From contig OZ025820.1 in the NCBI GenBank assembly GCA_964019425.1, forward strand, positions 620,001-684,000: 64,000 nt of DNA, given 5' to 3'. Source of the DNA: Flectonema sp. DT1601 (taxonomy: Eukaryota; Euglenozoa; Diplonemea; Diplonemida; Diplonemidae). The notes beneath the pieces were generated by a model, which made no database searches, had not been told where the DNA came from, and saw only the letters and a list, made by a program, of their open reading frames with translations. Numbering within the stretch: position 1 is the stretch's first letter; each line of letters starts with the position of its first letter. The translations under genes and the position numbers were made by a program. Positions 20,254 through 54,800 of the stretch are shown here, piece by piece.

Positions 20254-20497
20254 CCTTTTTCATCTTTACTGTTAGACTTTATTAGATTATTTATTTTTGT
20301 TTTGATATTCCGACATGTCCTCAAATTTTAGTTCCATTCTTCAGAAAAACTTTAATAAATTATGCCTCCCTGCTGGTGTTTTGGCTTGTAAATTGTTTTG
20401 TGGAGACTTTTGTTCTTTTCCCGTTCTGTTTTCTGAGTGAAGCCATGCTTTCACACCGTGGATCGATACGAAGGTATTTTCCTGAACCTGTCTTGTA

Positions 20498-20585
20498 GTT
20501 GGAGGATGAAACACTACACCCGGCGAAGGGAATTCAATTGCCTGCTGAAGGCCTTAAAAAATACTGATTTAATGAGCCTGACAAC
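20498..20585 (+). ncRNA. C/D snoRNA, A type copy 1 (SSU guide)
   Basis: 88 nt between the terminal stem arms GTTG and CAAC. Box C is AGGATGA and box D is CTGA, directly followed by CAAC; internal CTGA is a possible D'. The bases before box D, ACTGATTTAATGAGC, are the reverse complement of GCTCATTAAATCAGT, a universal stretch near the 5' end of SSU rRNA. By the rule that the fifth base before box D marks the target, the A in GCTC-A-TTAAATC is predicted to be 2'-O-methylated. That is the site served by yeast snR51 (A100) and human U57 (A99), numbers from memory. Confidence 0.85.
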
Positions 20586-20648
20586 ATCTTTTTCTACTTT
20601 CCTTTTTCTCATTATCGCTGTGCTCTCTGCGACCGCTCTGTTTCCTGA

Positions 20649-20726
20649 ATGATGACAAATTATAACCAAAACACCATCTTTCGAGTTTGAGTACATCGTG
20701 ATACGAACATCCCATTTGGTAACTGA
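20649..20726 (+). ncRNA. C/D snoRNA, B type copy 1 (LSU guide)
   Basis: 78 nt from box C (ATGATGA) to box D (CTGA). The internal D' is TTGA and C' is GTGATAC, so all four boxes are present. The guide before D' (CACCATCTTTCGAGT) is the reverse complement of CGAAAGATGGTG plus flank, a universal LSU rRNA stretch. The fifth-base rule points to the G of CGAAAG, which I recall as yeast Gm805 (snR39b). The second guide before D (ACATCCCATTTGGTAA) is conserved in all copies but has no target I recognise. No terminal stem is seen; ACCAAA and TTTGGT inside the RNA can pair. Confidence 0.82.
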
Positions 20727-20848
20727 CTCCAACTCTTTTACACAAAGCGTAGCATTCTTGTCGGGCTGCAGGTCTAATCCAACTCTCTGTCAGATCCTTT
20801 CATTTAATGAGCTCTTCTGATTTCCTTTTCATTATTTCTGTGCTTTCT

Positions 20849-20936
20849 GTTGGAGGATGAAACAATACACTCGGCGAAGGGAATTCAATTGCCTGCTGAA
20901 GGCCTTAAAAAATACTGATTTAATGAGCCTGACAAC
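20849..20936 (+). ncRNA. C/D snoRNA, A type copy 2
   Basis: Stem arms, box C, box D and the SSU guide are intact; one base differs (ACTCGG for ACCCGG) after box C. Followed by cassette F. Confidence 0.85.
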
Positions 20937-21068
20937 ATCTTTTCTGATTTCCCTTTTCTCATTGCCTGCTGTGCCTTGTGCAAATCATCAGCACACATGC
21001 TTGTCGCTGCATCTTAACGTCGCTGTCTTCTTAATAAGATGATACTCTACGACCGCTCTGTTTCCCAC

Positions 21069-21146
21069 ATGATGACAAATTATAACCAAAACACCATCTT
21101 TCGAGTTTGAGTACATCGTGATACGAACATCCCATTTGGTAACTGA
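21069..21146 (+). ncRNA. C/D snoRNA, B type copy 2
   Basis: All four boxes intact, leader TTTCCCAC. Followed by cassette C. Confidence 0.82.
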
Positions 21147-21250
21147 CTCCAACTCTTTCCAACTTCTGGGAACTTCATTTCCTGAAGTTGGATCTGCAGT
21201 CACTTTATTGTGTGCACTTGTTGTTCTTGTTCTGTCTTTCTGTTTCCTGA

Positions 21251-21326
21251 ATGATGACAAATTTTAACCAAAACACCATCTTTCGATTGAGTACTCCGTG
21301 ATACGAACATCCCATTTGGTAACTGA
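21251..21326 (+). ncRNA. C/D snoRNA, B' variant copy 3
   Basis: In the B' variant the D' box reads CGATTGAG instead of CGAGTTTGAG, moving TTGA two bases closer to the guide. The fifth-base rule then points to the second A of CGAAAG (Am807 in yeast, from memory). This copy keeps ATGATGACAA and is 76 nt. Followed by cassette D. Confidence 0.78.
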
Positions 21327-21452
21327 CTCCAACTATCTAACACGCGATGTTGTTGCCGTCTGTAGTCTTAACTTGATTCTAGCACACCTGCTGAGTCAAG
21401 ACATCGCTACGTTCTTAGTAAGTTGATACTTTGAGATCTTTCTGTTTCCCAC

Positions 21453-21530
21453 ATGATGACAAATTATAACCAAAACACCATCTTTCGAGTTTGAGTACAT
21501 CGTGATACGAACATCCCATTTGGTAACTGA
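21453..21530 (+). ncRNA. C/D snoRNA, B type copy 4
   Basis: Boxes intact. Followed by cassette C. Confidence 0.82.
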
Positions 21531-21634
21531 CTCCAACTCTTTCCAACTTCTGGGAACTTCATTTCCTGAAGTTGGATCTGCAGTCACTTTATTGTGTGCA
21601 CTTGTTGTTCTTGTTCTGTCTTTCTGTTTCCTGA

Positions 21635-21709
21635 ATGATGATAATTATAACCAAAACACCATCTTTCGATTGAGTACTCCGTGATACGAACATCCCATTT
21701 GGTAACTGA
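21635..21709 (+). ncRNA. C/D snoRNA, B' variant copy 5
   Basis: 75 nt with ATGATGATAA at box C. Followed by a shortened cassette D (ATCTAGCACGCG). Confidence 0.78.
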
Positions 21710-21828
21710 CTCCAACTATCTAGCACGCGTGCCGTCTGTAGTCTTAACTTGATTCTAGCACACCTGCTGAGTCAAGACATCGCTACGTTCTTAGTAAGTT
21801 GATACTTTGAGATCTTTCTGTTTCCCAC

Positions 21829-21906
21829 ATGATGACAAATTGTAACCAAAACACCATCTTTCGAGTTTGAGTACATCGTGATACGAACATCCCATTTGGT
21901 AACTGA
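21829..21906 (+). ncRNA. C/D snoRNA, B type copy 6
   Basis: Boxes intact; TGTAACC replaces TATAACC after box C. Followed by cassette E. Confidence 0.82.
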
Positions 21907-22056
21907 CTCCAACTCTTTTACACAAAGTGTAGCATTCTTGTCGGGTTGGAGCCTTGATGACTTGGAGGTCAGCAATCCAACTCTCTGCCAGCTCATCTCA
22001 GGATGTGCGACCATTCTGTTTTCTGAGTGAAGATATTTTCCTGAACCTGTCTTGTA

Positions 22057-22144
22057 GTTGGAGGATGAAACAATACACCCGGCGAAGGGAATTCAATTGC
22101 CTGCTGAAGGCCTTAAAAAATACTGATTTAATGAGCCTGACAAC
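22057..22144 (+). ncRNA. C/D snoRNA, A type copy 3
   Basis: Boxes, stem and SSU guide intact. First element of the 762-bp duplicated block. Confidence 0.85.
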
Positions 22145-22207
22145 ATCTTTTCTGATTTCCCTTTTTTCATTACCTGCTGTGCACTCTGCGACCTTTCCAT
22201 TTCTCAC

Positions 22208-22285
22208 ATGATGACAAATTATAACCAAAACACCATCTTTCGAGTTTGAGTACATCGTGATACGAACATCCCATTTGGTAACTGA
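22208..22285 (+). ncRNA. C/D snoRNA, B type copy 7
   Basis: Boxes intact; leader reads TTTCTCAC. Followed by cassette C. Confidence 0.82.
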
Positions 22286-22389
22286 CTCCAACTCTTTCCA
22301 ACTTCTGGGAACTTCATTTCCTGAAGTTGGATCTGCAGTCACTTTATTGTGTGCACTTGTTGTTCTTGTTCTGTCTTTCTGTTTCCTGA

Positions 22390-22464
22390 ATGATGATAAT
22401 TATAACCAAAACACCATCTTTCGATTGAGTACTCCGTGATACGAACATCCCATTTGGTAACTGA
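22390..22464 (+). ncRNA. C/D snoRNA, B' variant copy 8
   Basis: Boxes intact with the shifted D'. Followed by a full cassette D. Confidence 0.78.
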
Positions 22465-22590
22465 CTCCAACTATCTAACACGCGATGTTGTTGCCGTCTG
22501 TAGTCTTAACTTGATTCTAGCACACCTGCTGAGTCAAGACATCGCTACGTTCTTAGTAAGTTGATACTTTGAGATCTTTCTGTTTCCCAC

Positions 22591-22668
22591 ATGATGACAA
22601 ATTGTAACCAAAACACCATCTTTCGAGTTTGAGTACATCGTGATACGAACATCCCATTTGGTAACTGA
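22591..22668 (+). ncRNA. C/D snoRNA, B type copy 9
   Basis: Boxes intact; shares TGTAACC with copy 6, exactly 762 bp upstream. Followed by cassette E. Confidence 0.82.
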
Positions 22669-22818
22669 CTCCAACTCTTTTACACAAAGCGCAGCATTCT
22701 TGTCCGGTTGGAGCCTTGATGACTTGGAGGTCAGCAATCCAACTCTCTGCCAGCTCATCTCAAGATGTGCGACCATTCTGTTTTCTGAGTGAAGATATTT
22801 TCCTGAACCTGTCTTGTA

Positions 22819-22906
22819 GTTGGAGGATGAAACAATACACCCGGCGAAGGGAATTCAATTGCCTGCTGAAGGCCTTAAAAAATACTGATTTAATGAGCCT
22901 GACAAC
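22819..22906 (+). ncRNA. C/D snoRNA, A type copy 4
   Basis: Boxes, stem and guide intact; 762 bp from A copy 3. Confidence 0.85.
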
Positions 22907-22969
22907 ATCTTTTCTGATTTCCCTTTTTTCATTACCTGCTGTGCACTCTGCGACCTTTCCATTTCTCAC

Positions 22970-23047
22970 ATGATGACAAATTATAACCAAAACACCATCT
23001 TTCGAGTTTGAGTACATCGTGATACGAACATCCCATTTGGTAACTGA
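22970..23047 (+). ncRNA. C/D snoRNA, B type copy 10
   Basis: Boxes intact; 762 bp from copy 7. Followed by cassette C. Confidence 0.82.
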
Positions 23048-23151
23048 CTCCAACTCTTTCCAACTTCTGGGAACTTCATTTCCTGAAGTTGGATCTGCAG
23101 TCACCTTATTGTGTGCACTTGTTGTTCTTGTTCTGTCTTTCTGTTTCCTGA

Positions 23152-23226
23152 ATGATGATAATTATAATCAAAACACCATCTTTCGATTGAGTACTCCGTG
23201 ATACGAACATCCCATTTGGTAACTGA
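23152..23226 (+). ncRNA. C/D snoRNA, B' variant copy 11
   Basis: Boxes intact; TAATCAAAA replaces TAACCAAAA upstream of the LSU guide. Followed by a truncated cassette D. Confidence 0.78.
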
Positions 23227-23306
23227 CTCCAACTATCTAACACGCGATGACATAACATTGCTTCGTTCTTAGGAAGTTGATACTCTGCGATCTTTCTATT
23301 TCCCAC

Positions 23307-23384
23307 ATGATGACAAATTATAACCAAAACACCATCTTTCGAGTTTGAGTACATCGTGATACGAACATCCCATTTGGTAACTGA
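23307..23384 (+). ncRNA. C/D snoRNA, B type copy 12
   Basis: Last copy of array 1; the repeat ends four bases after box D. Confidence 0.82.
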
Positions 23385-23510
23385 CTCCTTTATATGTGAA
23401 ACTGTTTATGATCTCAAACAGTTATTGAATTCAATCTTATTTATTAGTGAGTTGTAATTGTTAAGATCTCTTAATTAATATTTATCAAATCAGATCTTAT
23501 AAAGATAACA

Positions 23511-24248
23511 ATGGCAGCTAAGGGTGTACGTTGGGTAGCCATTGGGTGGGCTGGATTCATCGGAGAAAATTTACTTATGTCTGAGAATCGAGATTTAATA
23601 ATTGAACAGTTTAGTAAGAATGGATACCACGGTTTGTATGGAGCCTTATCAACAGTTTCAATGGGTTCAGTAATTTATGGTACTGTGAAATACAAGACTC
23701 CTCGGGGTACCGTTGTGGCTTCGAGAAAAGTAGTATCAATCGCACTAAAGATGATGGGTGCTATGGGAATCTCTCAGGCGTTACCACCACTTCGGAATAT
23801 AGGCTTTGATGCCCCAATCCCGGTTGTAGAATCATCGTCGGCGGCGAGGCCCACATCATCAATGTGTCCTATAGATTTATCTTGGAGAAAAAATGCTGAA
23901 GGAAAAGAAGTATATGGCATAAAGAGAATAACAAGGCATCCACAGCTTTGGGCATTATCATTTCTAGGTGCAGGAGTTGCTGTTGGAACTGCGTGTCCCG
24001 TAGTAGCAACAGCTTCATTAGGAATCGTACCTGTAACTTTAATCCTTGGTTCTCACCAGGATAGTCGTTTCAAACGTGGAATCGGACAACAGATGTCTGA
24101 AAATGTTGTAAATACTACTTCTCATATCCCGTTTGGTGCTGTAGTTACTGGGGATCAATCACTTGGTCAGGCGTGGTACGAATCAAAGAAAACCAATGCT
24201 GTCGTAGCAGCTGTTGCCACAGCTGTATACAGTGGAGTCAGGATGTAG
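23511..24248 (+). CDS. NnrU-family membrane protein
   Basis: A 245-residue multi-pass membrane protein. Residues ~135-200 hold the NnrU signature: GIKRITRHPQLW, then a hydrophobic segment, then LILGSHQDSRFKR. NnrU proteins and the plant zeta-carotene isomerase Z-ISO share this fold and coordinate haem in the latter. The N-terminal ~100 residues are also hydrophobic and glycine-rich. Its role in this organism is unknown. The start ATGGCAGCTAAG is the first in frame and lies about 125 bp after array 1. Confidence 0.75.
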   Translation: MAAKGVRWVAIGWAGFIGENLLMSENRDLIIEQFSKNGYHGLYGALSTVSMGSVIYGTVKYKTPRGTVVASRKVVSIALKMMGAMGISQALPPLRNIGFDAPIPVVESSSAARPTSSMCPIDLSWRKNAEGKEVYGIKRITRHPQLWALSFLGAGVAVGTACPVVATASLGIVPVTLILGSHQDSRFKRGIGQQMSENVVNTTSHIPFGAVVTGDQSLGQAWYESKKTNAVVAAVATAVYSGVRM

Positions 24249-24781
24249 AATATTTTAATATCACGTAAGTCGATAATAAGCGCCTTCACAGTGCGGAAAT
24301 CGTTGTTCTTATTTCCATATTGTGACATGTTTTAAACATGTCATTTGAGTTGTTAACTTTTAGTTGTTGTTTCGCATCCTCTGACACGCGCAACAGCTAA
24401 TGAGCGTTTTCTTAAAGTTGTTGATCGGAATTTTCGAGGAATCTACAACGGTTATTAAACTTGCAAGAAAAAATGAAAAAAACAGACAACAGACAACAGA
24501 AAAAAAAAAAAAAAGAAGAAAAAAAAAGTGATTCGAAAAGGCATCAGCTGGCACTATCTCGACGAAGCGGGAAAAAAAAAAAAAAAAGAAGAAACGCTCG
24601 TAGATTTACTGATGGTGTATTTTATTCTCTCTGTTGCGATTCTCATTCAGTTACAGTTTCAAACAAATCAGTCGAAATAGGTAGAGTTTGTCGTGGGGGT
24701 GAGAAATATGAATTTTTTTATTACATTAGTTTTATCACCATAAAGCATCATATTCTCCCTTTTAAAGAACAACATAAAATA
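24249..24781. other. Intergenic, homopolymer-rich
   Basis: The sulfotransferase frame stays open through this stretch back to 24461, but it begins with TTG and codes for lysine runs from poly(A), so I treat it as leader. A palindrome-like ACATGTTTTAAACATGT lies near 24327. Confidence 0.5.
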
Positions 24782-26095
24782 ATGCAAAATCTCTTTCCGG
24801 TTTACTATGGTCACGGAGTGGAGAAATCATTCCCAGATTCGCTACGTCCACGGAGATCGATTTCATTGGTGTTGGGTAACGTAGTGATGAGCTTAGCATG
24901 GACGTTGGGTCTTCATGATGGCATCTTAAGTAGGATGGAGCCATCGCTTATATTAAAAAAAGCTTGTAAGGAAACAGGATTAAGTAATTTCGATGATCCT
25001 GATGGAGCGATGTTTGATAATTTAACAAAGGCACTCGACTGTATAGAAGACTCTACGCAATTACATTCTCTTGGCAGGTATCTTATTCACCTTACTTTTC
25101 AGCATTATGCTAGAAACCGTTTACGTGTCGTGGATTATATTGACAAGAATCCCACGGTTCGAGACCAAAGAATCAGATCACCAATCTTCATCATCGGAAT
25201 GGCAAGAACCGGAACTACTTTTTTACACGGATTGCTGTCATGTGATGAAAAGTTACGTTCACCGACTTATTTTGATATGGCGTATCCGCAATTCCCACCT
25301 CTTCCAAATGGTAAAATAAACAAAACATCTGCTGAATATCTTAAAGCCGAAAGAGAACTAGCACAATGGAAAACAATAGTCAATAACATTGATGAAACAC
25401 ACTTCATGTCTGTTGAAAGTGCTGAAGAATGTCTTGTGATATTAACACAGAACTGGTCATCACTGTCGCTCGTAATGTATGGTTGTTATGATTTTTTAAA
25501 ATCATACATGAAAAAGGAAGCAGTTGATTCTTTTATTTATCATAAAAAGTTTCTTCAATACCTGCAATCGAATTCCGATGATAAACAGTGGCTGTTGAAG
25601 TCTCCTTGGCACTTGAATCAAATTGAGACTATTAAAAAAGTTTATCCAGACGCGAAGTTTATTTGGACTCACAGAGATCCAAAAGAAGCCCTTCCCTCAT
25701 GGTGCTCTCTCGTCACTAAAATTATGGGATCGGTGACAAATCATCTCGACTTAGGTTTTCAGGGTAAGAAGAATTTAGAATTATTCTCAAATCTTGTTAA
25801 CAAGGCAATGGAACAATCAGATCAGCTTCCGCAGTCTGACATCGCCCACGTCGCTTTTAAAGATATCCGTGAGAATCCGTTGGACGTTATAAATGCGATT
25901 TATGACCAGTTTGGAATGGAAATTACTCCGAGTCTTCAGTCAAAAATGAAATACTTCATCGAAGACTTTGGTAAACAAGCCAAAAAAGTTGGTAAACACA
26001 AACATCAATTGGAATGGTTTAAGTTAACTTCTGATCAAGTAGACGAGTCATTCAGTAATTATACTGCTAGGTATAAACAGTATCTGGAAAAGTAA
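24782..26095 (+). CDS. Sulfotransferase family protein (Sulfotransfer_3 type)
   Basis: A 437-residue PAPS-dependent sulfotransferase. The 5'-phosphosulfate loop is visible as IGMARTGTTFLH at residues ~138-149, and the 3'-phosphate-binding segment as FIWTHRDPKEALPSW further on. The size and the MARTGTT form of the loop fit the Sulfotransfer_3 family found in bacteria and many protists. There is no signal peptide, so it is probably cytosolic and acts on small molecules; the acceptor is unknown. The ATG at 24782 is chosen because the codons before it encode poly(A)-derived lysines and low-complexity sequence. Confidence 0.88.
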   Translation: MQNLFPVYYGHGVEKSFPDSLRPRRSISLVLGNVVMSLAWTLGLHDGILSRMEPSLILKKACKETGLSNFDDPDGAMFDNLTKALDCIEDSTQLHSLGRYLIHLTFQHYARNRLRVVDYIDKNPTVRDQRIRSPIFIIGMARTGTTFLHGLLSCDEKLRSPTYFDMAYPQFPPLPNGKINKTSAEYLKAERELAQWKTIVNNIDETHFMSVESAEECLVILTQNWSSLSLVMYGCYDFLKSYMKKEAVDSFIYHKKFLQYLQSNSDDKQWLLKSPWHLNQIETIKKVYPDAKFIWTHRDPKEALPSWCSLVTKIMGSVTNHLDLGFQGKKNLELFSNLVNKAMEQSDQLPQSDIAHVAFKDIRENPLDVINAIYDQFGMEITPSLQSKMKYFIEDFGKQAKKVGKHKHQLEWFKLTSDQVDESFSNYTARYKQYLEK

Positions 26096-26923
26096 TATTT
26101 TTCTTTTTTTTTTTTTTGATGAAAACGGCATTTGCAGAAACTTATTTGCTTGGATTTATCCACAGAAAGCATGGATTTTTCCCCTTTCTCATTCCCCTCC
26201 ATGTTAGTCAGGTACTTGATATTAATTTTGTTTTTAATACCTAAAGTTGTTACTGTTTTTGCATTTCACCCTCATCTCGGAGATATATATTTTGCGAGAA
26301 AGGGAATTGCGGTTGCGTACAAACAAAAACAAAAGTGTGAGAGAATTATTTAGTATGGAGAAATCTCAAAGACCATCTATCGTTTTCAAGAATTTTCGTC
26401 CTGCTTTTCCCCCCTTTTTTTCTTTTTTTTTTTTTTTTTTTTTTTTGTATTTTGAAGTGCAAAACAATCAACCATGTTTTGCGCTTCTGTACCGCGACCT
26501 GCTAATTATCGACCGTCGTCATCACTTTACGTTTCTTTATCCGTTGGAAGCGTGGGATAATAATCGTTTCTTGCTCTTCTTTTTTTTGTACTGTAGTACA
26601 CGTTTTCAAAAAAAAAAAAAAATATAACTATTCAGTTAAAGCTTTTTTTGTATTTTCGTTGAACGCAGAATACGTGTCGCATTGAGCCTTTCAACATTTC
26701 CATCGTTTTTTTTTTTTTTTTTTTTGGTGCGCAAGACTCTAACAAAGGTCTTTCAAGTCACGCATAGGTAAAATCTTACACCTTGATAAAAAGTAACAAT
26801 CTTCTGTGTGGAGAATATGTGATTATTGTGGTTTTTCTTTTTTAAAATGATATTATTGTGTGTCTTGTTTGTTTGTGTGTTTAGATATATTTTTATACAG
26901 CTTTTATCAAAGTAAACAAGACA
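26096..26923. other. Intergenic; first copy of a duplicated upstream region
   Basis: No gene seen. The segment from about 26447 to the start codon recurs downstream (about 27978-28222 and 29075-29190). T runs occur near 26425 and 26706, and an A run near 26610. Confidence 0.7.
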
Positions 26924-27939
26924 ATGGGAAAGCTACAGACCCTGGGTGAACTCGGAGGGTTAGCAACGATCCACACGTTGTTATCCAAGATATTAACTCA
27001 AGAAAGAGGAAGGAAACTATTCCCAGGATGTGACGAGGAAGAGATAAAGAGAAAGAGAACTCTTTTATGTGCTGCGGGTGCAGCTTTGGTTATTTCTCAA
27101 AGATGGCAGTCAATGAACAAAAGTCTCTTATTGGGAGTATTATTGGTCAAGTTTTTAAACTTATTTGATGGACCTGATAATTATAATAAAGCAATGGCGA
27201 GCTTCTTATTCTGTCCTATCGGCGCAATAATGTTTCGCAGATGGGGAGAAGCTGCAGCAGGCAGAGACTTAGCAGTGCATCCTGAATTTGTAGGAACTAT
27301 GGGAATGTTGCTTGGACTGAAGAACAAAGCCAGTATGTAGTTTATTTTTTTTTAAGTTGAATTTTTTTCTCTTTTAGCCAACACAACACAAATACAGACA
27401 TAAAATTGTATGCATCAGATCCAGCTGCTGCCAATATAGGATACCTGCAACCGCTAATAGCAGGAATGAAGCATAGTTTGAGAGTGCTCACTACCGTATA
27501 CCTCATGCAGGCAATCGTTAGTTACGCTATGAAGAAGAATAAAAAATTGAGTAATCTCGCTCATAAGATAAAAGAAGCATTTCAACGTGCCATTAGAACT
27601 TCATTAGTATATCAATGCTGTGCGACTTACAGTACTTGGGCTTATCAATACTATGGAAACACACCTCCAGTTTGGGCTGGTTGGGCAACTTTGGTTTTCG
27701 TTTTTGAACCGCTTCCGCGTTTTGCAACGATCACCGAATATTACTGTTCTCACTTTGCTTCTGCTGTGTATCAAGATTTCAGATTATCTCTTGCGAGATC
27801 ATCATCACCTCTTGTTGCATCTTCGATGGGTCTTATTCATGGATACGCAATGGCCTTTGGCATACCTTCAATGCTATTAATTCACTCGTTGTATGGCTCT
27901 GGGACACCACTTCCACTAATGAAATCCTTGACACAATAG
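26924..27939 (+). CDS. Multi-pass membrane protein, unrecognised
   Basis: Two exons, 26924-27332 and 27398-27939, joined across a 65-nt intron (GTATGT to ATACAG), give 316 residues; splicing yields LKNKANIKLYASDP and keeps the frame. The nearer TTTTAG at 27377 would break the frame, so the acceptor at 27397 is preferred. Hydrophobic segments lie at about residues 48-62, 66-80, 94-104, 150-175 and 210-230, with another near the C-terminus. I considered TMEM135-like or Tim17-like proteins but see no diagnostic motif. A broken copy of its 5' end lies at 29128. Confidence 0.65.
27333..27397 (+). other. Intron, 65 nt
   Basis: GT-AG; T-rich in the middle, acceptor ACAG. It contains in-frame stops, so splicing is needed to join the two hydrophobic halves. 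Confidence 0.65.
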
Positions 27940-28222
27940 AGAGGACTTTTCTTTTCTTTCCATTCCTTTTTTTTTTTATGTTTTGAAGTGCATACCAATC
28001 AACCATAAAAATGTTTTGCACTTCTGTACTCCGACCTGCTAATTATCGATCGTATTCCATCGCTTTTTTTTTCTCTCTGTGCGCAAGACTCTAACGAAGT
28101 TCTTTAAGTCACGCAAAGGTAAAATCTTACACCTTGATAAAGTAACAATCTTCTGTGTGGAGAATCAGCGATTGTAGTGGTTTTTTTTTCTTTTTTTCTT
28201 AGTGATATCATTGTTTCCTTGT

Positions 28223-29074: not shown

Positions 29075-29127
29075 TTTGTTTGTTTATATATATTTTTTAT
29101 ACAGATTTTATCAAAGTAAACAAGACA

Positions 29128-42679: not shown

Positions 42680-45600
42680 ATGCAACGTGACGAGGGGTAC
42701 ACCCACGTTGAGTCTTGTACCTTCAATGAAGTACCAGGTTGGAAGGCTAGTCCGAATCCAACTGGACTGTTGTCAGGGTCAGGAGGACTACACAAAGGAA
42801 AGATGTGGAAGAGAAAAAGAAGTAATTCAAATTCTGGTTCAGGGAATTTAAGTACACAAGCAGGATACGGGTATTCAGAAGAGATAACAATGCCTTCTGT
42901 AAAAGGGAAACACTTGGAGAATCTTTACGGTGATGATATTTCTTATAAAATTATCGGAAAAGGTGAATGTAAACAATCCCTTCACCAATATAAGTTACCA
43001 GACGATCAAACCAGATCCTCATCTCCAACAGAAACCTTTACAACGACTTCTCGTCAAAGTACAACAGGTTCTTCAAATCCGAGAGTGGTTGTTAAGCCTC
43101 ATTCAGTAACTGTTAAAGGTCAGAGAGTGGTTGTTAATATTGAGCCACCTGCTGTGAGTGAATCGAGTGCTCATCCACATTTACTTCATAAAAGAGTTGC
43201 TGCAAAACCCAGCAATTTAAAAGAAATTTCCGAACGTGTTTCATACCTCGAAAGAATGGCAACTACAACATCTGGTGACCTAAATAAGGCATCAGATATC
43301 AAACAGGAGATAAATGAATTGAAAGACTTGGTTGTTATTCATCAAAAGACTCTTCAACTTGACAGTGAACTCTCTCTTGTAAATGCTATGAAAGGAGCAG
43401 TCACAACTCAATTAAACTCACACGTCAGATGTAGTGGACGTGTCAGTCCAGAGGCACCTCTAAACCCATCACTACCTCAGAGTGGACAAGCTATTCGTGT
43501 TGAAGCTACTCAACAAGGTGAATTGTTAGTGTCTCGTTCAGACTCTGTTGGTATTAAAACAGTTAGTCAACAGTCAGATGTTGGTTACGTAGCAGCCTCT
43601 AAAGTAATTCCTGAACAGTTATATGATGAGACATCACAGCCGTCATCAGAGAAAACTCACACTGAGTTAACCGACGCTAGAGTTCAACTACTTCAGGCAA
43701 TGCGTGAAAATAATACTCTTCAATATACTATTGGAGAGATCGCTGATGATAATTTAAAGTTGAGAAGTGAGTCTGATTTTCTAAGAGACGAAGCTGCTAA
43801 CATGGAAGTTGAAGTTGAGGTTCATAAAAAAAGAGCGAACACAGCTGAAGCAACTCTTCTTCACATTGAATCCACGTCATTACAACAACAACTTGCAAAT
43901 GGTACGTCAGAAGCCACAACAAACAGCAGAAGTACGAGTGATTCACAAAGAAGTCAGGACACAGCAGAACCTCCACCAGAACAAGCTGCCGCAATTCTTC
44001 ATCAAATAGCTGACTACCACAATAGAGAACTGTCGCAACAACAACAGAAAATTGTTCATCTGGAGTCTATTGTAAAAGCACACAATATAAAAATTTCAGA
44101 CACAGATAAACGATCAATACCAAAACAACCATCGAGTGAGTTAAGTTACAAAACACAATCATCACGCAGACAGAGTAGTGACTCATTGAACGTGTTACGT
44201 GAAGAAGGTACTCAAGTGACTGCTACTCACGTCAACCAAATACGACGACCTTCAACACAGGACAGGTATGAAGACACAACAGTGAAATCATTCAAACCTG
44301 TACCAGTTGTACAGAATGTCAGATTACCATCTCAAGAACGTGAGTACTACGAAGAGAAGATTCAACATTTAGAAGCAACACAACAACAAGAAGTACAACA
44401 GGCGACGACTTCAACTCCTGCTGTCGGTCTTTCAACAGAAGACCGAAAGTACTACGAAGAGAAGATTCATCAATTAGAGATCGAGCAACACAACAATAGA
44501 ATTATTAATACGGAACCTCAACAACAACAACAACAACTAAACCTACCAACTGAAGAACAGCAATACTACGAAAGTAGAATTAAACAACTGTCTGGAACTG
44601 TTAGTGAACAGAAACACACTCAACAAGAATTAACACCTGACACAAAGCAAGATATTCCGTCACCTATGAAACCAAAAGGAATTATACTTCGAGAATATTA
44701 CGAAAGGAAGATTGCAGAGCTGCAGCCGTCATCGATGGATTCAGTTGTTCAACAACAACATAGTAAGGTAGACCTTCTTGAAGAACAACTTGTGTTATTG
44801 AAAGAGAATCAACAGGCGGTTTTGAAAGAAAAAACAACTGAATTCGCTTCGAAAATTGAAAATCTTGAAAAAACAGTTTCAAATCAGCTCTCAACACAGC
44901 AAGAAGCTATTTCACTTCAAACGAAAATAGCCGAACTGGAACAACAAGCAATCGAGAACAAAGCGAATTACTCAAATCTACAAGAAGAATATAACATCAT
45001 GAAAGCAGACAAAGATAACTTATCACAGAGACTTCAGCTCAGCATGGAGGAGTCTAATTCACAAAAACAGGAAATAATCGACTTGACTAAAGCTAACACT
45101 GGATTACGAGATTTAACTGAGAAACAGTCATCAGAAATAAGATCATTAGAAAAAACTTTGGAAGACAGAGACAAATCTCATTCAGAGAAGATTGAAGAGC
45201 TTCAAAAAGATTTAAATTACGCGAAAGATGGAATTCAAGAAACAGTTTCGTCATTTAAAAGTAAAGAAATCTCATCTTTACAAGAAATTGAAGTTCTTAC
45301 GCAAGACAATCACCGCCTACGAGATACCCTCGATGACTGGAATACTCAAATAGCTCAGCAGTCAGAAGAAGTAGCAGTAGTAACTCTCGAAGGAGTAAAT
45401 CTTAAGAATACTCTCGTTGAAATTAACCAAAAACAGCTCCAATCAGACAAAATAAATGAAAATCTCACAAAAAAATTGAGAAGCGCTGAACAGTACATGG
45501 ATTCTCTTGAGAAGGAACGATCAGCTCTGAAGGAAAATCATAAAAAGATTGCTTTTGAAATTAATGAATTGAATGAAGAAAGCAGCATACTCCGCAAAGA

Positions 45601-45979
45601 GCTTCAAACACTTCGAACGGTTGTTCCTGAGAGGGATAGCTTAAGGAGTGAGTTACAAGGACTCACAAAACTTCAACTTAAAAACAGTGAAATCATAAGC
45701 GAGTTAACCACCAAAGCATCTCAATTAAACTTTGCTGAGAGCGACTTGCGTACCACTCAATCAAAGTACAGCACTGTTTCAACGGAATTACAAAGTATTC
45801 GAGCGGAAAAAGATGTGCTGGTAAGCCAGATTCAATTTCTGCATTCGGAAGCAGATGAGGCAGCTGGCATTCAGATCAACTTGCGGGGACATATTCAAAA
45901 ATTAAAGGAAAAATCAAACATTAAAGATGAAGAGAAGGCTGCCTTAGTACACAGAATACACAATTTAGAAGAAAAATCA

Positions 45980-46020
<41 letters not shown>

Positions 46021-46459
46021 ACAACAACAACAACAACAACAACAGCAGCATCCAGTGTCTCAATCACAAGAGTGTATGCAGTGTCACTGTTTGTTAAAGG
46101 CTTTAGACAACAGAGCTGTAGAGTTGGAAAAATTGAAATCACAACTTTTATCAAAACCGATCTCTTCTTCATTCACTGCAACGGTTACGACGGAGAAGCC
46201 TCGACCTGCTCCAAATACAGTCGCTTGGGCCAATCAACTTGAAGCTATTGAGTGTGATTATGACAGCCATTCTAATACTGAAACACTTCCTGCTGAATCT
46301 GAACCAGTAAAACCATTAAAACAGTCAAACGTTTCATCATCTCATCAATATCGTAGACCTATGCAGCCTGTTCATGACAATCACGAAATATCCTCGAGAG
46401 GTAAAGTAAGGAGACGTTCAAACCATTCTATTCATCGGTACGTCTACGTTGATACTTAA
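42680..46459 (+). CDS. Large coiled-coil protein with YYE repeats and a polyglutamine tract
   Basis: 1259 residues in one frame. The first ~170 are disordered. Coiled coil begins near 185 and dominates from ~690 to ~1110. Between about 550 and 680 a motif recurs four times: EREYYEEKIQHLE, DRKYYEEKIHQLE, EQQYYESRIKQLS and LREYYERKIAELQ. A run of 23 glutamines (45980-46048, mixed CAA and CAG) interrupts the coiled coil near its end. The C-terminus is basic. It is probably a cytoskeletal or centrosomal scaffold; no family is recognised. Confidence 0.7.
45980..46048 (+). repeat. CAA/CAG microsatellite coding for 23 glutamines
   Basis: The first half alternates CAA and CAG; the second half is mostly CAA, which suggests two phases of expansion. 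Confidence 0.9.
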
Positions 46460-47014
46460 TTATATAATTTTAGATATTTTATTCCCCTCCCTTTCTCTCC
46501 CCTGCTTTCTTTTTGTTTCTTCTGATTTCTAGTTGCAAAATCAGATTTCACACAGACATTTCTTTTATGTTATTTCCTCCTGTTTCCCCCTTTCCCCTAG
46601 TTTGTTTACACCCGACGATAGTCGGGAGAACGGAACTATTCAGATTGAAAAAAAAACCCATATTTCTGCGTAACGAAATATAAGGTTTAATCTATAAAGG
46701 GGGTTTTTTTTTTTAAAAAACACACATTTTTTTTTTTTTTTTTATATTTAGATTGTCAACAGACTCTTTGCTTAGATTGTTTTCAAAGGAACATCCCCCC
46801 CAATCCAGTTATAATGATTCATGTCTAATTGGTTGCGTGTTAACCTTGATTTATTTATCCAAGTCCCCCCCCCGTGATTTTTATAGATTATTGTGTAATA
46901 TTAGTCAATAGTAGAAAAAAGAAAGATTGAAGGTAAAAAAAAAATAAAATAATTTTTTTTTTTTTTTTTTGTTTTTTCATAGAAAAATCGAAAACACAAA
47001 AACGATATAACAAA
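46460..47014. other. Intergenic, homopolymer-rich
   Basis: No gene seen. A palindrome ACCCGACGATAGTCGGGA (CCCGAC and GTCGGG, 46610-46625) is a short hairpin. T runs lie near 46705, 46727 and 46950. Confidence 0.5.
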
Positions 47015-50000
47015 ATGGGATTACATAAAATAGAGAGAATCCTGATTGCGAACAGAGGTGAGATCGCACGTCGTGTAATTAGAGCATGTGATCAAATGGG
47101 ACTAACAAGCATTGCCGTCTATACCGAAGTTGACAAGTCACTTCCGTATGTTGGAGAAGCAAAAACAGCTGTCTGTTTAGGATCTGATACTCAAGCTTAC
47201 TTAGACATGAAAGCGATCATCAAAGCTGCTAAGGAAACAAAAGCTGATGCTATTCACCCTGGATACGGATTCTTATCAGAGAGAGCAGACTTTGCAAGAG
47301 CAGTAGAGGCTGAGGGTATCGTATTCATTGGTCCTACTCCTGAAACTATTGACTCGATGGGTTCAAAGATTGGTGCTAAGAACCTTCTCAAAGACACAGC
47401 TCCACTCGTACCAGGAAGAACTTCTGGCACTGTCGAAGAATGGGTTGCTGCATCTGAAGAAATGGGCTACCCTGTCCTAGTGAAGGCATCCGCTGGAGGA
47501 GGCGGTCGCGGAATGCGAGTTGTCTGGAACGCTTCTGAACTGAAGGAAGCTATGAAAACCGCTGAAGGTATTCACTTTTCCTTTGTAAAAAATTGTTTCT
47601 CTTGGAAATCAGTAGGTTAACTTTTATTTTTGGTTTCATTCTGTTTTCTGAGTGAAGATATTTTCCTGAACCTGTCTTGTAGTTGGAGGATGAAACAATA
47701 CACCCGGCGAAGGGAATTCAATTGCCTGCTGAAGGCCTTAAAAAATACTGATTTAATGAGCCTGACAACATCTTTTCTACTTTCCCTTTTTTCATTACCT
47801 AGTCTGCGATCTTTCTGTTTCCCACATGATGACAAATTATAACCAAAACACCATCTTTCGAGTTTGAGTACATCGTGATACGAACATCCCATTTGGTAAC
47901 TGACTCCAACTCTTTCCAACTTCTGGGGACTTCATTTCCTGAAGTTGGATCTGCAGTCACTTTATTGTGTGCACTTGTTGTTCTTGTTCTGTCTTTCTGT
48001 TTCCTGAATGATGATAATTATAACCAAAACACCATCTTTCGATTGAGTACTCCGTGATACGAACATCCCATTTGGTAACTGACTCCAACTCTTTTACACA
48101 AAGCGTAACATTCTTGTCGGGTTGGAGCCTTGATGACTTGGAGGTCAGCAATCCAACTCTCTGCCAGCTCATCTCAGGATGTGCGACCATTCTGTTTTCT
48201 GAGTGAAAATATTTTCCTGAACCTGTCTTGTAGTTGGAGGATGAAACAATACACCCGGCGAAGGGAATTCAATTGCCTGCTGAAGGCCTTAAAAAATACT
48301 GATTTAATGAGCCTGACAACATCTTTTCTGCTTTCCCTTTTTTCATTACCTGCTGTGCCTTGTGCAAATCATCAGCACACATGCTTGTCGCTGCATCTTA
48401 ACGTCGCTGTCTTCTTAATAAGTTGATACTCTGCGACCTCTCTGTTTCCCACATGATGACAAATTATAACCAAAACACCATCTTTCGAGTTTGAGTACAT
48501 CGTGATACGAACATCCCATTTGGTAACTGACTCCAACTCTTTCCAACTTCTGGAACTTCATTTCCTGAAGTTGGATCTGCAGTCACTTTATTATGTGCAC
48601 TTGTTGTTCTTGTTCTGTCTTTCTGTTTCCTGAATGATGATAATTATAACCAAAACACCATCTTTCGATTGAGTACTCCGTGATACGAACATCCCATTTG
48701 GTAACTGACTCCAACTATCTAACACGCGATGTTGTTGCCGTCTGTAGTCTTAACTTGATTCTAGCACACTTGCTGAGTCAAGACATCGCTACGTTCTTAG
48801 TAAGTTGATACTTTGAGATCTTTCTGTTTCCCACATGATGACAAATTATAACCAAAACACCATCTTTCGAGTTTGAGTACATCGTGATACGAACATCCCA
48901 TTTGGTAACTGACTCCAACTCTTTTACACAAAGCGTAACATTCTTGTCGGGTTGGAGCGTTGATGACTTGGAGGTCAGCAATCCAACTCTCTGCCAGCTC
49001 ATCTCAGGATGTGCGACCATTCTGTTTTCTGAGTGAAGATATTTTCCTGAACCTGTCTTGTAGTTGGAGGATGAAACAATACACCCGGCGAAGGGAATTC
49101 AATTGCCTGCTGAAGGCCTTAAAAAATACTGATTTAATGAGCCTGACAACATCTTTTCTACTTTCCCTTTTTTCATTACCTGCTGTGCACTCTGCGACCT
49201 GTTTCTCACATGATGACAAATTATAACCAAAACACCATCTTTCGAGTTTGAGTACATCGTGATACGAACATCCCATTTGGTAACTGACTCCAACTCTTTC
49301 CAACTTCTGGGGACTTCATTTCCTGAAGTTGGATCTGCAGTCACTTTATTGTGCGCACTTGTTGTTCTTGTTCTGTCTTTCTGTTTCCTGAATGATGATA
49401 ATTATAACCAAAACACCATCTTTCGATTGAGTACTCCGTGATACGAACATCCCATTTGGTAACTGACTCCAACTCTTTTCCAACTTCTGGGGACTTCATT
49501 TCCTGAAGTTGGATCTGCAGTCACTTTATTGTGCGCACTTATTGTTCTTGTTCTGTCTTTCTGTTTCCTGAATGATGATAATTATAACCAAAACACCATC
49601 TTTCGATTGAGTACTCCGTGATACGAACATCCCATTTGGTAACTGACTCCAGTCGCTGCTGTTGTTCTGAATCCGTCTTTATAACAACTGATGTGATGCT
49701 TTGATGAGTGTGATAACTAGTTTGTAAATATCCCTTATCCTAAAACAATTAAAACAGGTGAAGCCCTTCGTGCTTTTGGAGAAGGATCAGTTATGCTTGA
49801 GAAGTACTTTAATGAAGTTCGTCACATTGAAGTTCAGATCTTTGGTGATGCATACGGTAATGTAATTCACCTTCTTGAAAGAGAATGTAGTATCCAAAGA
49901 AGACATCAGAAAGTTATCGAAGAAGCACCATCACAGTTTCTGACTCCAGAACTTCGTAAGGAAATGTGCGACAGCGCAGTTCAAATCGCGAAAACTATCA

Positions 50001-51473
50001 ACTACAGAGGTGCTGGTACTGTAGAGTTTATTGTGGATCCAAAGACTAAGAAGTTCTACTTCCTTGAAGTTAATACTCGTCTTCAAGTTGAGCATCCTGT
50101 AACTGAATTAGTTACCAACTTAGATCTCGTAATGCTTCAGATTCTTGTTGCCATGGGAGTCCCAATGGTGAAAGCCCTGCCACAGGTGTGTAGTAGTTTA
50201 AGTTTGGTATTTGTCATTATTAAATGGAAGAAAAAGAAAAAATTAACAGGTTCGCCTCGACAAAACATTGCCGGCCCTCACTACCAGTCCAACTGAACCT
50301 CTCGGACATGCTATTGAAGTTCGTGTCTACGCAGAAGATTTTAATTTGATGCCAACAGTTGGGGATGTAGAGTTGTGGCACACATTACAAAAACCAAGCG
50401 ACACTTACTACCACAACGCTGTTGAAACAGGTACCACTATCTCTGTTCACTACGACAACATGATCAGCAAAGTTGTAACATGGGATGCTTACAGCAGAGA
50501 CTCTGCTATTAGAAAGTGTGTTCGTGCCTTGAGAAATACCGCATGCTTTGGATTAACGAACAACAAACTCTTCCTGTTATCAATGTTGGTTGATGAGCAG
50601 TTCATTGAGGGGTCACAGTTATGTACGAAGTGGATCACTGACAGGTTCGAGGCATTGAAATCTACAGCTTTCGGAATGCTCTCACCCGACTTAATTAAGT
50701 TATCAGGACAGGTAGCAACTATTTGGTTCACAGCTCATAAGAAACGCGCTCATCTTCGTCATATTCCAGCTGGTTGGTCGAATGTAGGAAATAGAACAAT
50801 CGAATCTATTTTGAAAGTTCGAAAGTCAGCACACGGAATTCTTCCACCAACTCCTTATAATCTTGCGGCAAATGCTGTTGAAGCAAAAGACGAAACAGGG
50901 GACATTCCAATAGTTATTAAATATTCACGTGATAGAAGAGGTGTATTTAATTTCTTAGGATCAAACGACTCTGTTGAACTCATTGAATTAACAGACAATG
51001 GTGTCTTCTCAATCGTAAAGGTTCAAGCCAACGGTAAGTTAGAATCATTTGTAGTAAATTGCAAGTCACCATCACAGATTGAAGAGTGTGAGGTTTCAGT
51101 AATGCGTATCGAAGACGGTATTGAAGTCACATTCCAAAAGATTCCAGCTCTGCTATTCCCTCAAAATGAAGTTGCAGAAACACCATCGACTCGTCCACCA
51201 ACTCAAACAAACTACACCTTCTCAGGAGACCAAGACGCTGCTCCAGAAGAGGTTGGTGTCACAGGCAACAAGGTCGTCTCACCAAAAATGGCCAAGGTTT
51301 TCAAAATAGTAAAACCTCAAGGCAGCACTGTATCAAAAGGAGAGACTGTTATTATCTTGGAATCCATGAAGATGGAAACAAAAGTCTTATCCAACTTTGA
51401 TGGTAAGCTTAATCTCAAATGCAAAGAAAATGACCTCGTTCGAACTGGAAAAACCCTCTTCGTTGTGGAATAA
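47015..51473 (+). CDS. Biotin-dependent acyl-CoA carboxylase alpha subunit, host of snoRNA array 2
   Basis: Three exons, 47015-47567, 49758-50185 and 50250-51473, encode 734 residues. The biotin carboxylase domain has [13 protein letters not shown] at the start, the ATP-grasp loop [30 protein letters not shown] and [14 protein letters not shown]. The C-terminal carrier domain has the biotin site ESMKMET with K701. The layout matches the alpha subunits of propionyl-CoA or methylcrotonyl-CoA carboxylase; I cannot decide between them. The protein begins almost at the catalytic domain ([11 protein letters not shown]), with no mitochondrial targeting peptide, so it may be cytosolic. Intron 1 carries the snoRNA array. 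Confidence 0.92.
47682..47769 (+). ncRNA. C/D snoRNA, A type copy 5
   Basis: Stem, boxes and SSU guide intact; opens the intronic array. Confidence 0.85.
47826..47903 (+). ncRNA. C/D snoRNA, B type copy 13
   Basis: Boxes intact. Followed by cassette C with GGGGAC in place of GGGAAC. Confidence 0.82.
48008..48082 (+). ncRNA. C/D snoRNA, B' variant copy 14
   Basis: Shifted D' present. Followed by cassette E rather than D. Confidence 0.78.
48233..48320 (+). ncRNA. C/D snoRNA, A type copy 6
   Basis: Stem, boxes and SSU guide intact. Followed by cassette F. Confidence 0.85.
48453..48530 (+). ncRNA. C/D snoRNA, B type copy 15
   Basis: Boxes intact. Followed by cassette C with one base missing (CTGGAACTTC). 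Confidence 0.82.
48634..48708 (+). ncRNA. C/D snoRNA, B' variant copy 16
   Basis: Shifted D' present. Followed by a full cassette D. Confidence 0.78.
48835..48912 (+). ncRNA. C/D snoRNA, B type copy 17
   Basis: Boxes intact. Followed by cassette E with GAGCGTTG for GAGCCTTG. Confidence 0.82.
49063..49150 (+). ncRNA. C/D snoRNA, A type copy 7
   Basis: Stem, boxes and SSU guide intact. Confidence 0.85.
49210..49287 (+). ncRNA. C/D snoRNA, B type copy 18
   Basis: Boxes intact; leader shortened to GTTTCTCAC. Followed by cassette C. Confidence 0.82.
49392..49466 (+). ncRNA. C/D snoRNA, B' variant copy 19
   Basis: Shifted D' present. Followed by a second cassette C, which makes a C-B'-C-B' tandem. 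Confidence 0.78.
49572..49646 (+). ncRNA. C/D snoRNA, B' variant copy 20
   Basis: Last copy of array 2, 111 nt before the 3' splice site of the host intron. Confidence 0.78.
50186..50249 (+). other. Intron 2 of the carboxylase gene, 64 nt
   Basis: GTGTGT to AACAG; joins MVKALPQ to VRLDKTLP. A normal short intron next to the giant one. Confidence 0.8.
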
Positions 51474-51860
51474 ACATACTACACATCAACATCTTTAGTG
51501 CATTGTAAAATATAGCTATTTCTTATTTTTTTTTGGCTTCCCCTATGCTACAAGAGAAAAGCTGTTATTTTTCTTCTATGTAAAAAAAAAAAATATGCAA
51601 ACATTTTTTTTTTATGAAGAGAATACATGTATGTATTGCCTTTACGGAAAAAAAAAAAAAAAAAAAAAACTTTTATTTTCTAATTAACGATTTATTTAAT
51701 TGTCGGGGGTTGAGTAACGTACCACCCGAATACGCTATTCCGACCAACTCAATATTCCAATATGACGACGCTTAATGCTTCTGCTTTTGTTTTATTTTTC
51801 ATATATTTTTTTTTTTAAATTTCCTCTTTCTTCCAGCCATAGAAGGATCAGGGCTCTAAA
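51474..51860. other. Intergenic, homopolymer-rich
   Basis: No gene seen. A run of more than 20 A lies near 51650; a T-rich tract with CTTCCAG ends at about 51837, 23 bp before the next ATG. Confidence 0.5.
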
Positions 51861-54800
51861 ATGGTTAAAAATAGATCAACTAATCCTAACGGAACTCTAT
51901 GGGCTAACAATAAGGATAAATTAGGAGCAAAGTTACTTGCAAAGTGGGGATGGACGGAAGGAAAGGGATTAGGTAAGAATGAAAATGGAATGACTGAGCA
52001 TGTTAAGGTTACAAAGAAAGATGACAACACGGGAGTAGGAACTTCAATGAATGTGAGCAGCTGGACAGGAAATACACTTCGGTTTGAAGACACCCTTGCG
52101 AGACTGTCAGGTAATACTTCGAAAAAGAAAAAGAAGAGATCAGGTAGCGTCTGCAGTTCTTCCTCAGAAAGTAGTGCTGCTTCTGTCAAAGACGTGTACA
52201 TTCCAAGAAGTCCAAAGGTTGGCGCCACAAACCTGATGTCTAATCGAAGAATTTATAACAGAAAACGCATTGCTGCAAAGTCCGAAATAAAAAGCAACGA
52301 TGAAGGTCGTAAAATCATTGTAGGTAAACGTCCTGATGAACTTCCCTGCCATCCAAAAGATACGAAACCTCAAAAGGTTGACCACACAGCTGATCAGCTG
52401 ACTGAAATTCAGACCTTCGCTGCCGTCAGCATGTCTGACTATTTTGCCAAGAAGGTGTGTTTTCTTTCTTACTTTACACCAGTCGTTCTCTCTGCGACCT
52501 TTCTGTTTCCCACATGATGACAAATTATAACCAAAACACCATCTTTCGAGTTTGAGTACATCGTGATACGAACATCCCATTTGGTAACTGACTCCAACTC
52601 TTTTACACAAAGCGTAGCATTCTTGTCGGGTTGGAGCCTTGATGACTTGGAGGTCAGCAATCCAACTCTCTGCCAGCTCATCTCAGGATGTGCGACCATT
52701 CCGTTTTCTGAGTGAAGATATTTTCCTGAACCTGTCTTGTAGTTGGAGGATGAAACAATACACCCGGCGAAGGGAATTCAATTGCCTGCTGAAGGCCTTA
52801 AAAAATACTGATTTAATGAGCCTGACAACATCTTTTCTGCTTTCCCTTTTCTCATTACCTGCTGTGCCTTGTGCAAATCATCAGCACACATGCTTGTCGC
52901 TGCATCTTAACGTCGCTGTCTTCTTAATAAGATGATGCTCTGCGACCGCTCTGTTTCCCACATGATGACAAATTATAACCAAAACACCATCTTTCGAGTT
53001 TGAGTACATCGTGATACGAACATCCCATTTGGTAACTGACTCCAACTCTTTTCCAGCTTCGGGGGACTTCATTTCCTGAAGTTGGATCTGCAGTCACCTT
53101 ATTGTGTGCACTTGTTGTTCTTGTTCTGTCTTTCTGTTTCCTGAATGATGATAATTATAACCAAAACACCATCTTTCGATTGAGTACTCCGTGATACGAA
53201 CATCCCATTTGGTAACTGACTCCAACTCTTTTACACAAAGCGTAGCATTCTTGTCGGGTTGGAGCGTTGATGACTTGGAGGTCAGCAATCCAACTCTCTG
53301 CCAGCTCATCTCAGGATGTGCGACCATTCTGTTTTCTGAGTGAAGATATTTTCCTGAACCTGTCTTGTAGTTGGAGGATGAAACAATACACCCGGCGAAG
53401 GGAATTCAATTGCCTGCTGAAGGCCTTAAAAAATACTGATTTAATGAGCCTGACAACATCTTTTCTGTTTTCCCTTTTCTCGTTACCTGCTGTGCACTCT
53501 GCGACCTTTCTGTTTCCCACATGATGACAAATTATAACCAAAACACCATCTTTCGAGTTTGAGTACATCGTGATACGAACATCCCATTTGGTAACTGACT
53601 CCAACTCTTTTACACAAAGCGTAGCATTCTTGTCGGGTTGGAGCCTTGATGACTTGGAGGTCAGCAATCCAACTCTCTGCCAGCTCATCTCAGGATGTGC
53701 GACCGTTCTGTTTTCTGAGTGAAGATATTTTCCTGAACCTGTCTTGTAGTTGGAGGATGAAACAATACACCCGGCGAAGGGAATTCAATTGCCTGCTGAA
53801 GGCCTTAAAAAATACTGATTTAATGAGCCTGACAACATCTTTTCTGATTTCCCTTTTTTCATTGCCTGCTGTGCCTTGTGCAAATCATCAGCACACATGC
53901 TTGTCGCTGCACCTTAACGTCGCTGTCTTCTTAATAAGTTGATACTCTGCGACCGCTCTGTTTCCCACATGATGACAAATTATAACCAAAACACCATCTT
54001 TCGAGTTTGAGTACATCGTGATACGAACATCCCATTTGGTAACTGACTCCAACTCTTTCCAACTTCTGGGAACTTCATTTCCTGAAGTTGGATCTGCAGT
54101 CACTTTATTGTGCGCACTTATTGTTCTTGTTCTGTCTTTCTGTTTCCTGAATGATGATAATTATAACCAAAACACCATCTTTCGATTGAGTACTCCGTGA
54201 TACGAACATCCCATTTGGTAACTGACTCCAACTCTTTTACACAAAGCGTAGCATTCTTGTCGGGTTGGAGCCTTGATGACTTGGATGTCAGCAATCCAAC
54301 TCTCTGCCAGCTCATCTCAGGATGTGCGACCATTCTGTTTTCTGAGTGAAGATATTTTCCTGAACCTGTCTTGTAGTTGGAGGATGAAACAATACACCCG
54401 GCGAAGGGAATTCAATTGCCTGCTGAAGGCCTTAAAAAATACTGATTTAATGAGCCTGACAACATCTTTTCTGCTTTCCTATTTCTAATTATCGCTGTGC
54501 ACTCCGCGACCTCACATGATGACAAATTATAACCAAAACACCATCTTTCGAGTTTGAGTACATCGTGATACGAACATCCCATTTGGTAACTGACTCCAAC
54601 TAGCAAGATTTTTCATCTGCAACGCTCGCTGTATTTCACTTCACCCCATGTTTAACTTATCAATTATAATAAACAGGCTGCTGGTGCTGGAGAAGTAGTT
54701 GAGGAAACATCGAAAAACACTATCTCCAGTTTTGCTGCATTTAATGCTGGTTTGTCTTCAGGAAAAACATTCGACGTCGCAAAGGAGACAAAACATGAGC

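Follow-up and report, generated by a model that had tools for sequence, protein, structure and literature searches.

Three arrays of predicted box C/D methylation-guide RNA genes, within introns and between genes, in a diplonemid genome

A window of 64,000 nucleotides (nt) was analysed from the diplonemid, i.e. euglenozoan, Flectonema sp. DT1601 (assembly GCA_964019425.1, 89.5 Mb; contig OZ025820.1, positions 620,001 to 684,000, forward strand). It contains three arrays with 38 genes for RNAs of the box C/D type. Box C/D small nucleolar RNAs (snoRNAs) are stable RNAs of 70-90 nt associated with fibrillarin, Nop56/58 and 15.5K/Snu13. With a probability of about 0.9, the 38 genes were read as encoding three diplonemid methylation guides, here called A, B1 and B2, which would be laid out in arrays of permuted units, cut from discarded pre-mRNA and produced in amounts set by copy number. 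As far as sequence goes, the assignment as guide RNA genes is supported; it draws on direct observations of box anatomy, pairing with the organism's own ribosomal RNA (rRNA), register, intron anatomy, core conservation and recurrence elsewhere in the genome. Transcription, processing, methylation and dosage of the arrays we infer. A would guide methylation of small subunit (SSU) rRNA at A98 from its D guide, and B1 and B2 that of large subunit (LSU) rRNA at G857 and A859, respectively, from the D' guide. The genes, which lie in a one-strand run, would be transcribed inside long pre-mRNAs, with the arrays placed in segments discarded by splicing: two cis introns (arrays 2 and 3) and, for array 1, a region between two open reading frames (ORFs) that is probably upstream of a trans-splice site. 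Box C/D proteins would bind each core, nucleases would trim the spacers, and the resulting ribonucleoproteins would methylate rRNA. In the absence of a promoter for each gene, copy number would be the means of raising output, which would account for the tens of copies.

Box C/D genes were located in the window by a pattern scan, which yielded 27 B and 11 A genes in the three arrays. The scan requires the boxes and would overlook broken copies; a genome-wide DNA similarity search without that requirement returned the identical 27 B and 11 A places and no further A or B copies among the best candidates, which alone were scored. An array stretch of 498 bases including spacers had no match outside the three arrays in a genome search scored in the same way. 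The word ATGATGA was counted 53 times in the window; 14.7 occurrences were expected, and 0 of 100 shuffles reached the observed count. Every B copy (27/27) carries the C box ATGATGA and the D box CTGA, with a span of 75-78 nt from C box to D box, and a D' box TTGA and a C' box GTGATA were seen inside B on inspection. Every A copy (11/11) carries the C box AGGATGA and the D box CTGA and spans 88 nt, including the GTTG/CAAC ends noted on inspection. The copy counts and places, the exact B boxes at constant spacing and the internal D'/C' boxes given in a preliminary description of this DNA were thus recovered. Its count of two RNAs was revised to three, since B splits into two classes, B1 (17 copies) and B2 (10 copies). 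Fifteen of the 17 B1 copies are identical and the other two share one same substitution; 8 of 10 B2 copies are identical, with two variants. A is always followed by B1 (11/11), and the unit orders of the three arrays are permuted A-B1-B2 modules.

Pairing was assessed against one rDNA unit of the organism, with SSU, 5.8S and LSU bounds set by Rfam; the tandem rDNA (unit ~6.88 kb) had been located by a universal SSU motif. The D guide of A pairs with SSU 94-107 at 14/14 Watson-Crick positions, with A98 as the +5 nucleotide, and the D' guide of B pairs with LSU 856-867 at 12/12. Both guides had been described beforehand as complementary to rRNA, and the segments concerned are present in the organism's own SSU and LSU. 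A snoscan-type search with this rRNA had been suggested as a check; our version (mini-snoscan) matched 38/38 copies without any other match in the three arrays, and 20 rRNA shuffles gave a mean of 1.15-1.65 matches per window array. Shuffled guides scored as well somewhere in rRNA in 1/200 cases for the A D guide and in 7/200 for B1. A genome search with the complement of the A guide, in which 15 bases were asked, matched the arrays only; the organism's SSU was missed because it matches only 14 bases, and the result was not counted against the guide.

The register of the predicted sites was checked against yeast. LSU G857 was set to yeast G805, and the same letter was found at 10 of the 11 other yeast LSU modified nucleotides tried, including A859 at yeast A807 (exception, 898). 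SSU A98 was set to yeast A100, and 2 of 3 others agreed (exception, 120). On this agreement, the yeast counterparts of A98, G857 and A859 are 18S-A100, 25S-G805 and 25S-A807, which are guided by snR51, snR39b and snR39/snR59, respectively (PMC8307265, PMC2806949, PMC5295604); chicken counterparts of those methylation sites have been tabulated (PMC2653536). The +5 nucleotides of A, B1 and B2 are counterparts of methylated yeast and chicken sites and are the predicted targets here. A chosen 861-base stretch of array 2 was scanned with Rfam at low threshold. SNORD51 was ranked first for a B2 copy (E 0.0018, 31.9 bits versus a gathering score of 50), SNORD96 for a B1 copy (E 0.0039, 28.7 versus 43, with SNORD51 as a weaker second match, E 0.26), and SNORD57 was matched by two A copies (E 0.0078 each, 25.5 bits versus 47). 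A and SNORD57 agree at 24/25 bases over guide and D box, and the SNORD96 consensus has the longer guide-to-box spacing. SNORD57, SNORD51 and SNORD96 are described here as putative functional counterparts of A, B2 and B1, not as families to which these RNAs belong.

B1 and B2 share the 12-nt antisense element and differ by 2 nt in length between this element and the D' box. CGAGT precedes TTGA in B1 (junction GAGTTTGA) and CGA precedes TTGA in B2; by the +5 rule this difference gives G857 for B1 and A859 for B2. The pair looks as if a 2-nt change in length, within homogenised repeats, had retargeted a guide. It was judged unlikely that B1 and B2 are one guide, with the 2-nt difference a product of neutral drift and both or neither serving one site. 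Such a reading accommodates the mismatch of B1 at guide position +3, the spread of variants in arrays by chance, the A859 spacing in 23/23 copies of another array family (contig C77), and the weak SNORD51 match of the B1 copy. However, the spacing is kept in 17/17 B1 and 10/10 B2 copies, both spacings land on counterparts of two yeast-methylated sites that have chicken counterparts, the first-ranked Rfam families differ (SNORD96 versus SNORD51), and the genome-wide pattern search gave no further guide with the G857 spacing. For the predicted B targets, register, Rfam and conservation carry most of the weight.

Pairwise diversity of the cores within each class was 0.004 for A (11 copies), 0.003 for B1 (17) and 0.008 for B2 (10). 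Pooling of B1 and B2, which differ from each other, raised it to 0.0225, close to the value of the least diverse spacer class. The 35 spacers assigned to five classes gave values of 0.022, 0.035, 0.068, 0.070 and 0.165. Within the cores, variation falls in columns between the C box and the D' region. Spacers are repeats too, more diverged than the cores and freer to change. The earlier statement that boxes and guides stay intact applies to 38/38 copies; its second half, that spacers vary, is correct but incomplete, as they form a small set of repeated classes. Repeated spacers would suit arrays made mostly of inert, satellite-like tandem repeats with a few working genes, as would the ~400-bp tandem arrays of Diplonema papillatum, which adjoin genes and lie outside mature mRNA (PMC10161547). 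This was considered very improbable, given that, class by class, the cores vary several-fold less than the spacers, that variable core columns are confined to one part of the core, and that all copies keep boxes and guides. Multiplication of a smaller array by an assembly artefact was given only a slight chance: near-identical units are hard to assemble and the assembly alone was used, but the three arrays differ in unit order, unique flanks and copy-specific spacer changes, and similar arrays of other guides lie on other contigs. Exact copy numbers could be off.

In two spacer classes, copies of the same array resembled each other a little more than copies of different arrays did (0.015 vs 0.021; 0.016 vs 0.025), and in two others this was not so (0.046 vs 0.033, from a single within-array pair; 0.169 vs 0.167). 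Divergence between the arrays is therefore slight; either recent spread or continuing exchange would predict this, and these data do not tell the two apart. Folding predicted hairpins in the window spacers. The spacer directly 3' of the B D box (21907-21951, 21147-21191 and equivalents) starts with CTCCAAC, which forms a hairpin with GTTGGAG; as an alternative, a CCAACTTC/GAAGTTGG hairpin follows the CTCCAAC start. These hairpins are possibly a processing signal. No extra guide with a 10-nt exact run adjoining a YTGA box was found in the window spacers.

All features listed here are on the + strand, and the RNA genes were placed by the pattern scan and a mini-snoscan match unless more is given. 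Array 1 (20421..23388, edges set by inspection) holds 4 A, 8 B1 and 4 B2 genes in the order A B1 A B1 B2 B1 B2 B1 A B1 B2 B1 A B1 B2 B1. It lies between an ORF with a HAUS1 domain (19444-20253) and an ORF with an NnrU domain (23511-24248). Its A genes (SNORD57/snR51-like, predicted target SSU A98) are at 20498..20585 and 20849..20936, each with one substitution, 22057..22144 and 22819..22906. The B1 genes (predicted target LSU G857) are at 20649..20726, 21069..21146, 21453..21530, 21829..21906 (one substitution), 22208..22285, 22591..22668 (one substitution), 22970..23047 and 23307..23384. The B2 genes (predicted target LSU A859) are at 21251..21326 (a 76-nt variant), 21635..21709, 22390..22464 and 23152..23226 (one substitution).

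Array 2 (3 A, 4 B1, 4 B2; order A B1 B2 A B1 B2 B1 A B1 B2 B2) is held by a GT-AG intron of a biotin-carboxylase gene (47568..49757). The reading frame is kept on joining, and the flanking exons align with consecutive parts of biotin carboxylases, e.g. 7ybu_A residues 63-243 and 248-382. A genes were placed at 47682..47769 and 48233..48320, both also with Rfam SNORD57 matches, and at 49063..49150; B1 genes at 47826..47903 (the copy matched by SNORD96), 48453..48530, 48835..48912 and 49210..49287; and B2 genes at 48008..48082 (the copy matched by SNORD51), 48634..48708, 49392..49466 and 49572..49646.

Array 3 (4 A, 5 B1, 2 B2; order B1 A B1 B2 A B1 A B1 B2 A B1) is held by a GT-AG intron of a G-patch gene (52455..54676), again with the frame kept on joining and with a Pfam G-patch match. 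The best PDB match of exon 1 is 'Protein PXR1' (E 1.7e-9, query residues 7-64, the G-patch region). A genes are at 52742..52829, 53370..53457, 53749..53836 and 54376..54463, B1 genes at 52514..52591, 52962..53039, 53521..53598, 53969..54046 and 54516..54593, and B2 genes at 53145..53219 and 54151..54225. The location of arrays both inside introns of protein genes (2 and 3) and between genes (1), proposed at the outset, was borne out. From the end of the last RNA to the 3' splice site there are 111 nt in array 2, 83 nt in array 3 and 108 nt in an array-bearing intron on contig C55. Yeast PXR1 is a G-patch cofactor that activates the helicase Prp43. The snoRNAs held in yeast pre-ribosomes on Prp43 depletion include snR39b, snR39/snR59 and snR60 (PMC2806949), which correspond to B1, B2 and an LSU G960 guide, respectively. 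By analogy, the position of array 3 inside a PXR1-like host gene might form a loop with guide release by Prp43.

Four conserved-site guide patterns, one of them B's own, were probed genome-wide, and two of the four had no genome match. The B pattern matched the 27 B copies and 23 on C77, all with B2 spacing, in two arrays (L048 and L053, at 199.4-202.0 and 219.2-222.1 kb); this A859-guide RNA was missed by the B DNA query. The pattern for LSU G960 (yeast 908) gave 42 matches, 40 of them in three arrays on C55 (L049, L051, L052) and 2 on C9 (L050). Full C-to-D cores were present in 41/42, and one copy at an array edge appears truncated. The C55 and C9 arrays also carry guides with predicted targets LSU C920 (19) and G2743 (18). 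The C920 guide points one nucleotide beyond the counterpart of yeast G867; this could reflect a one-nucleotide error in the prediction or a different site. The C77 arrays contain an RNA with guides for both A859 (23 copies) and G2520 (an 11-12-nt run in 20 copies); candidates for guides of SSU C1723 (9) and C946 (10; runs of only 10 nt) were noted in the same arrays. Shuffled rRNA gave a mean of 0.4-1.75 matches per region over the three window arrays, L048, L049 and L050. Single matches to 'LSU T13' and 'SSU G485' were left out, and an 'SSU C88' match on C9, which overlaps an ORF start, was taken as chance. With Rfam at E 0.5, the C77 guide RNA resembles snoMe28S-Am982 (SNORD51 clan) and a C9 RNA resembles snR67. 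Array C55b lies inside an intron of another protein gene, bringing to three the arrays in GT-AG introns of three protein genes (2, 3 and C55b); C55a, C55c and the C9 locus lie between ORFs by inspection. Up to 15 copies of one RNA occur per array. The layout seen in the window, with two or three guide RNAs reiterated over and over in an array, recurs elsewhere in this genome.

Several observations weigh against the assignment of the 38 genes as functional guides. At gathering scores Rfam gave no match of any kind in the window, nor any in L048-L050. Two of the four probed guide patterns were unmatched, and one matched pattern was B's own. The AGGATGA C box of A is off the RUGAUGA consensus at one position, the minimum-energy fold leaves the GTTG/CAAC ends of A unpaired, and B has no obvious terminal stem. 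B1 is mismatched at +3, and its complementarity by itself is not rare, as the shuffles show. No convincing target was found in rRNA or the rDNA unit for the A D' guide (197/200 shuffles as good) or for the B D guide. A genome-wide antisense search with the B D guide also gave no convincing target; it returned 3 one-mismatch matches outside the arrays, with 0 in a reversed-pattern control and ~2 estimated for random sequence.

The best rRNA match of the B D guide, LSU 2690-2706, was rejected as G-U rich with a mismatch, and was equalled by 21/200 shuffles. The D guide of the C77 RNA finds an 11-12-nt complement in LSU from position 2517 on; the equivalent stretch in B is similar but pairs poorly. 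Short stretches are shared between the 3' half of B and the C77 guide RNA, and the B D guide is possibly a decayed paralogous guide of that RNA.

Clustered snoRNA genes with polycistronic transcription in Euglena were reportedly described by Moore and Russell in 2012, and intronic snoRNA gene clusters are said to occur in Chlamydomonas and rice. In mammals, SNORD115 and SNORD116 exist as tens of tandem intronic copies of one C/D RNA; each intron of the non-coding host transcript carries a single copy, and no rRNA target is known to us. The arrays described here share with them tens of tandem intronic copies of one C/D RNA, but a single intron of a protein gene carries many copies, and rRNA targets are predicted. 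Guide RNA genes of trypanosomatids are organised in reiterated clusters (PMC2656528), and snoRNA gene clustering has been noted in both trypanosomatids and Euglena (PMC2784804). The diplonemid arrays resemble these in their euglenozoan host and in the repetition of guide genes in clusters within a one-strand gene run, but some lie in cis-spliced introns of protein genes. Trypanosomatid clusters mix C/D and H/ACA-like RNAs, whereas only box C/D RNAs were recognised in the window arrays, in which no specific H/ACA search was made. Like the intronic clusters of green algae and rice, arrays 2 and 3 place several guide genes within one intron. In Ostreococcus tauri 2 of 12 snoRNA clusters are intronic and all but 3 of the snoRNA genes are single copy (PMC7671301), in contrast to the up to 15 copies of one RNA per array here. 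Counterpart target nucleotides are shared with yeast snR39b (Gm805), snR39/snR59 (Am807) and snR51 (18S Am100) and with vertebrate snR39B, U32/U51 and U57; the similarity to these is mostly in boxes and guide, with Rfam scores under the gathering cut-offs.

Reiterated clusters and intronic clusters are each known, and what is new is their combination in a diplonemid. The word snoRNA is absent from the main text of the D. papillatum genome paper (PMC10161547), and a literature search, with subscription papers and preprints largely outside its coverage, gave no paper dedicated to diplonemid snoRNAs. With the diplonemids, the third main group of Euglenozoa (PMC9082867), the arrays bring a further lineage to bear on the origin of reiterated guide-RNA clusters. 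Because one genome has arrays both between genes and in cis-spliced introns, the two modes can be compared directly. Tentatively, and with the odds against it, many guides of this lineage might exist only in large homogenised arrays of discarded RNA, and a 2-nt slip might have made two competing guides whose G857/A859 balance is set by copy number.

ORFs of at least 120 aa in the window are on the + strand in 35 of 38 cases, and the other 3 are - strand ORFs that overlap arrays or ORFs of the + strand. This one-strand layout and the GT-AG introns fit the gene organisation of D. papillatum, for which one-strand gene clusters and GT-AG introns have been described (PMC10161547). A search with one uncharacterised window ORF found no relatives. 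A U3 search gave no match, and its control also matched nowhere, so that it was uninformative. The universal SSU motif gave 31 exact matches, made up of the tandem rDNA and scattered single matches (contigs C92, C39 and C79; single sites on other contigs). A (CAACAG)n repeat at 45980-46047, within ORF 42680-46459, codes for a glutamine run. A JmjC-domain protein of the window has 51% identity to a D. papillatum protein and 75% to a EukProt transcriptome protein.

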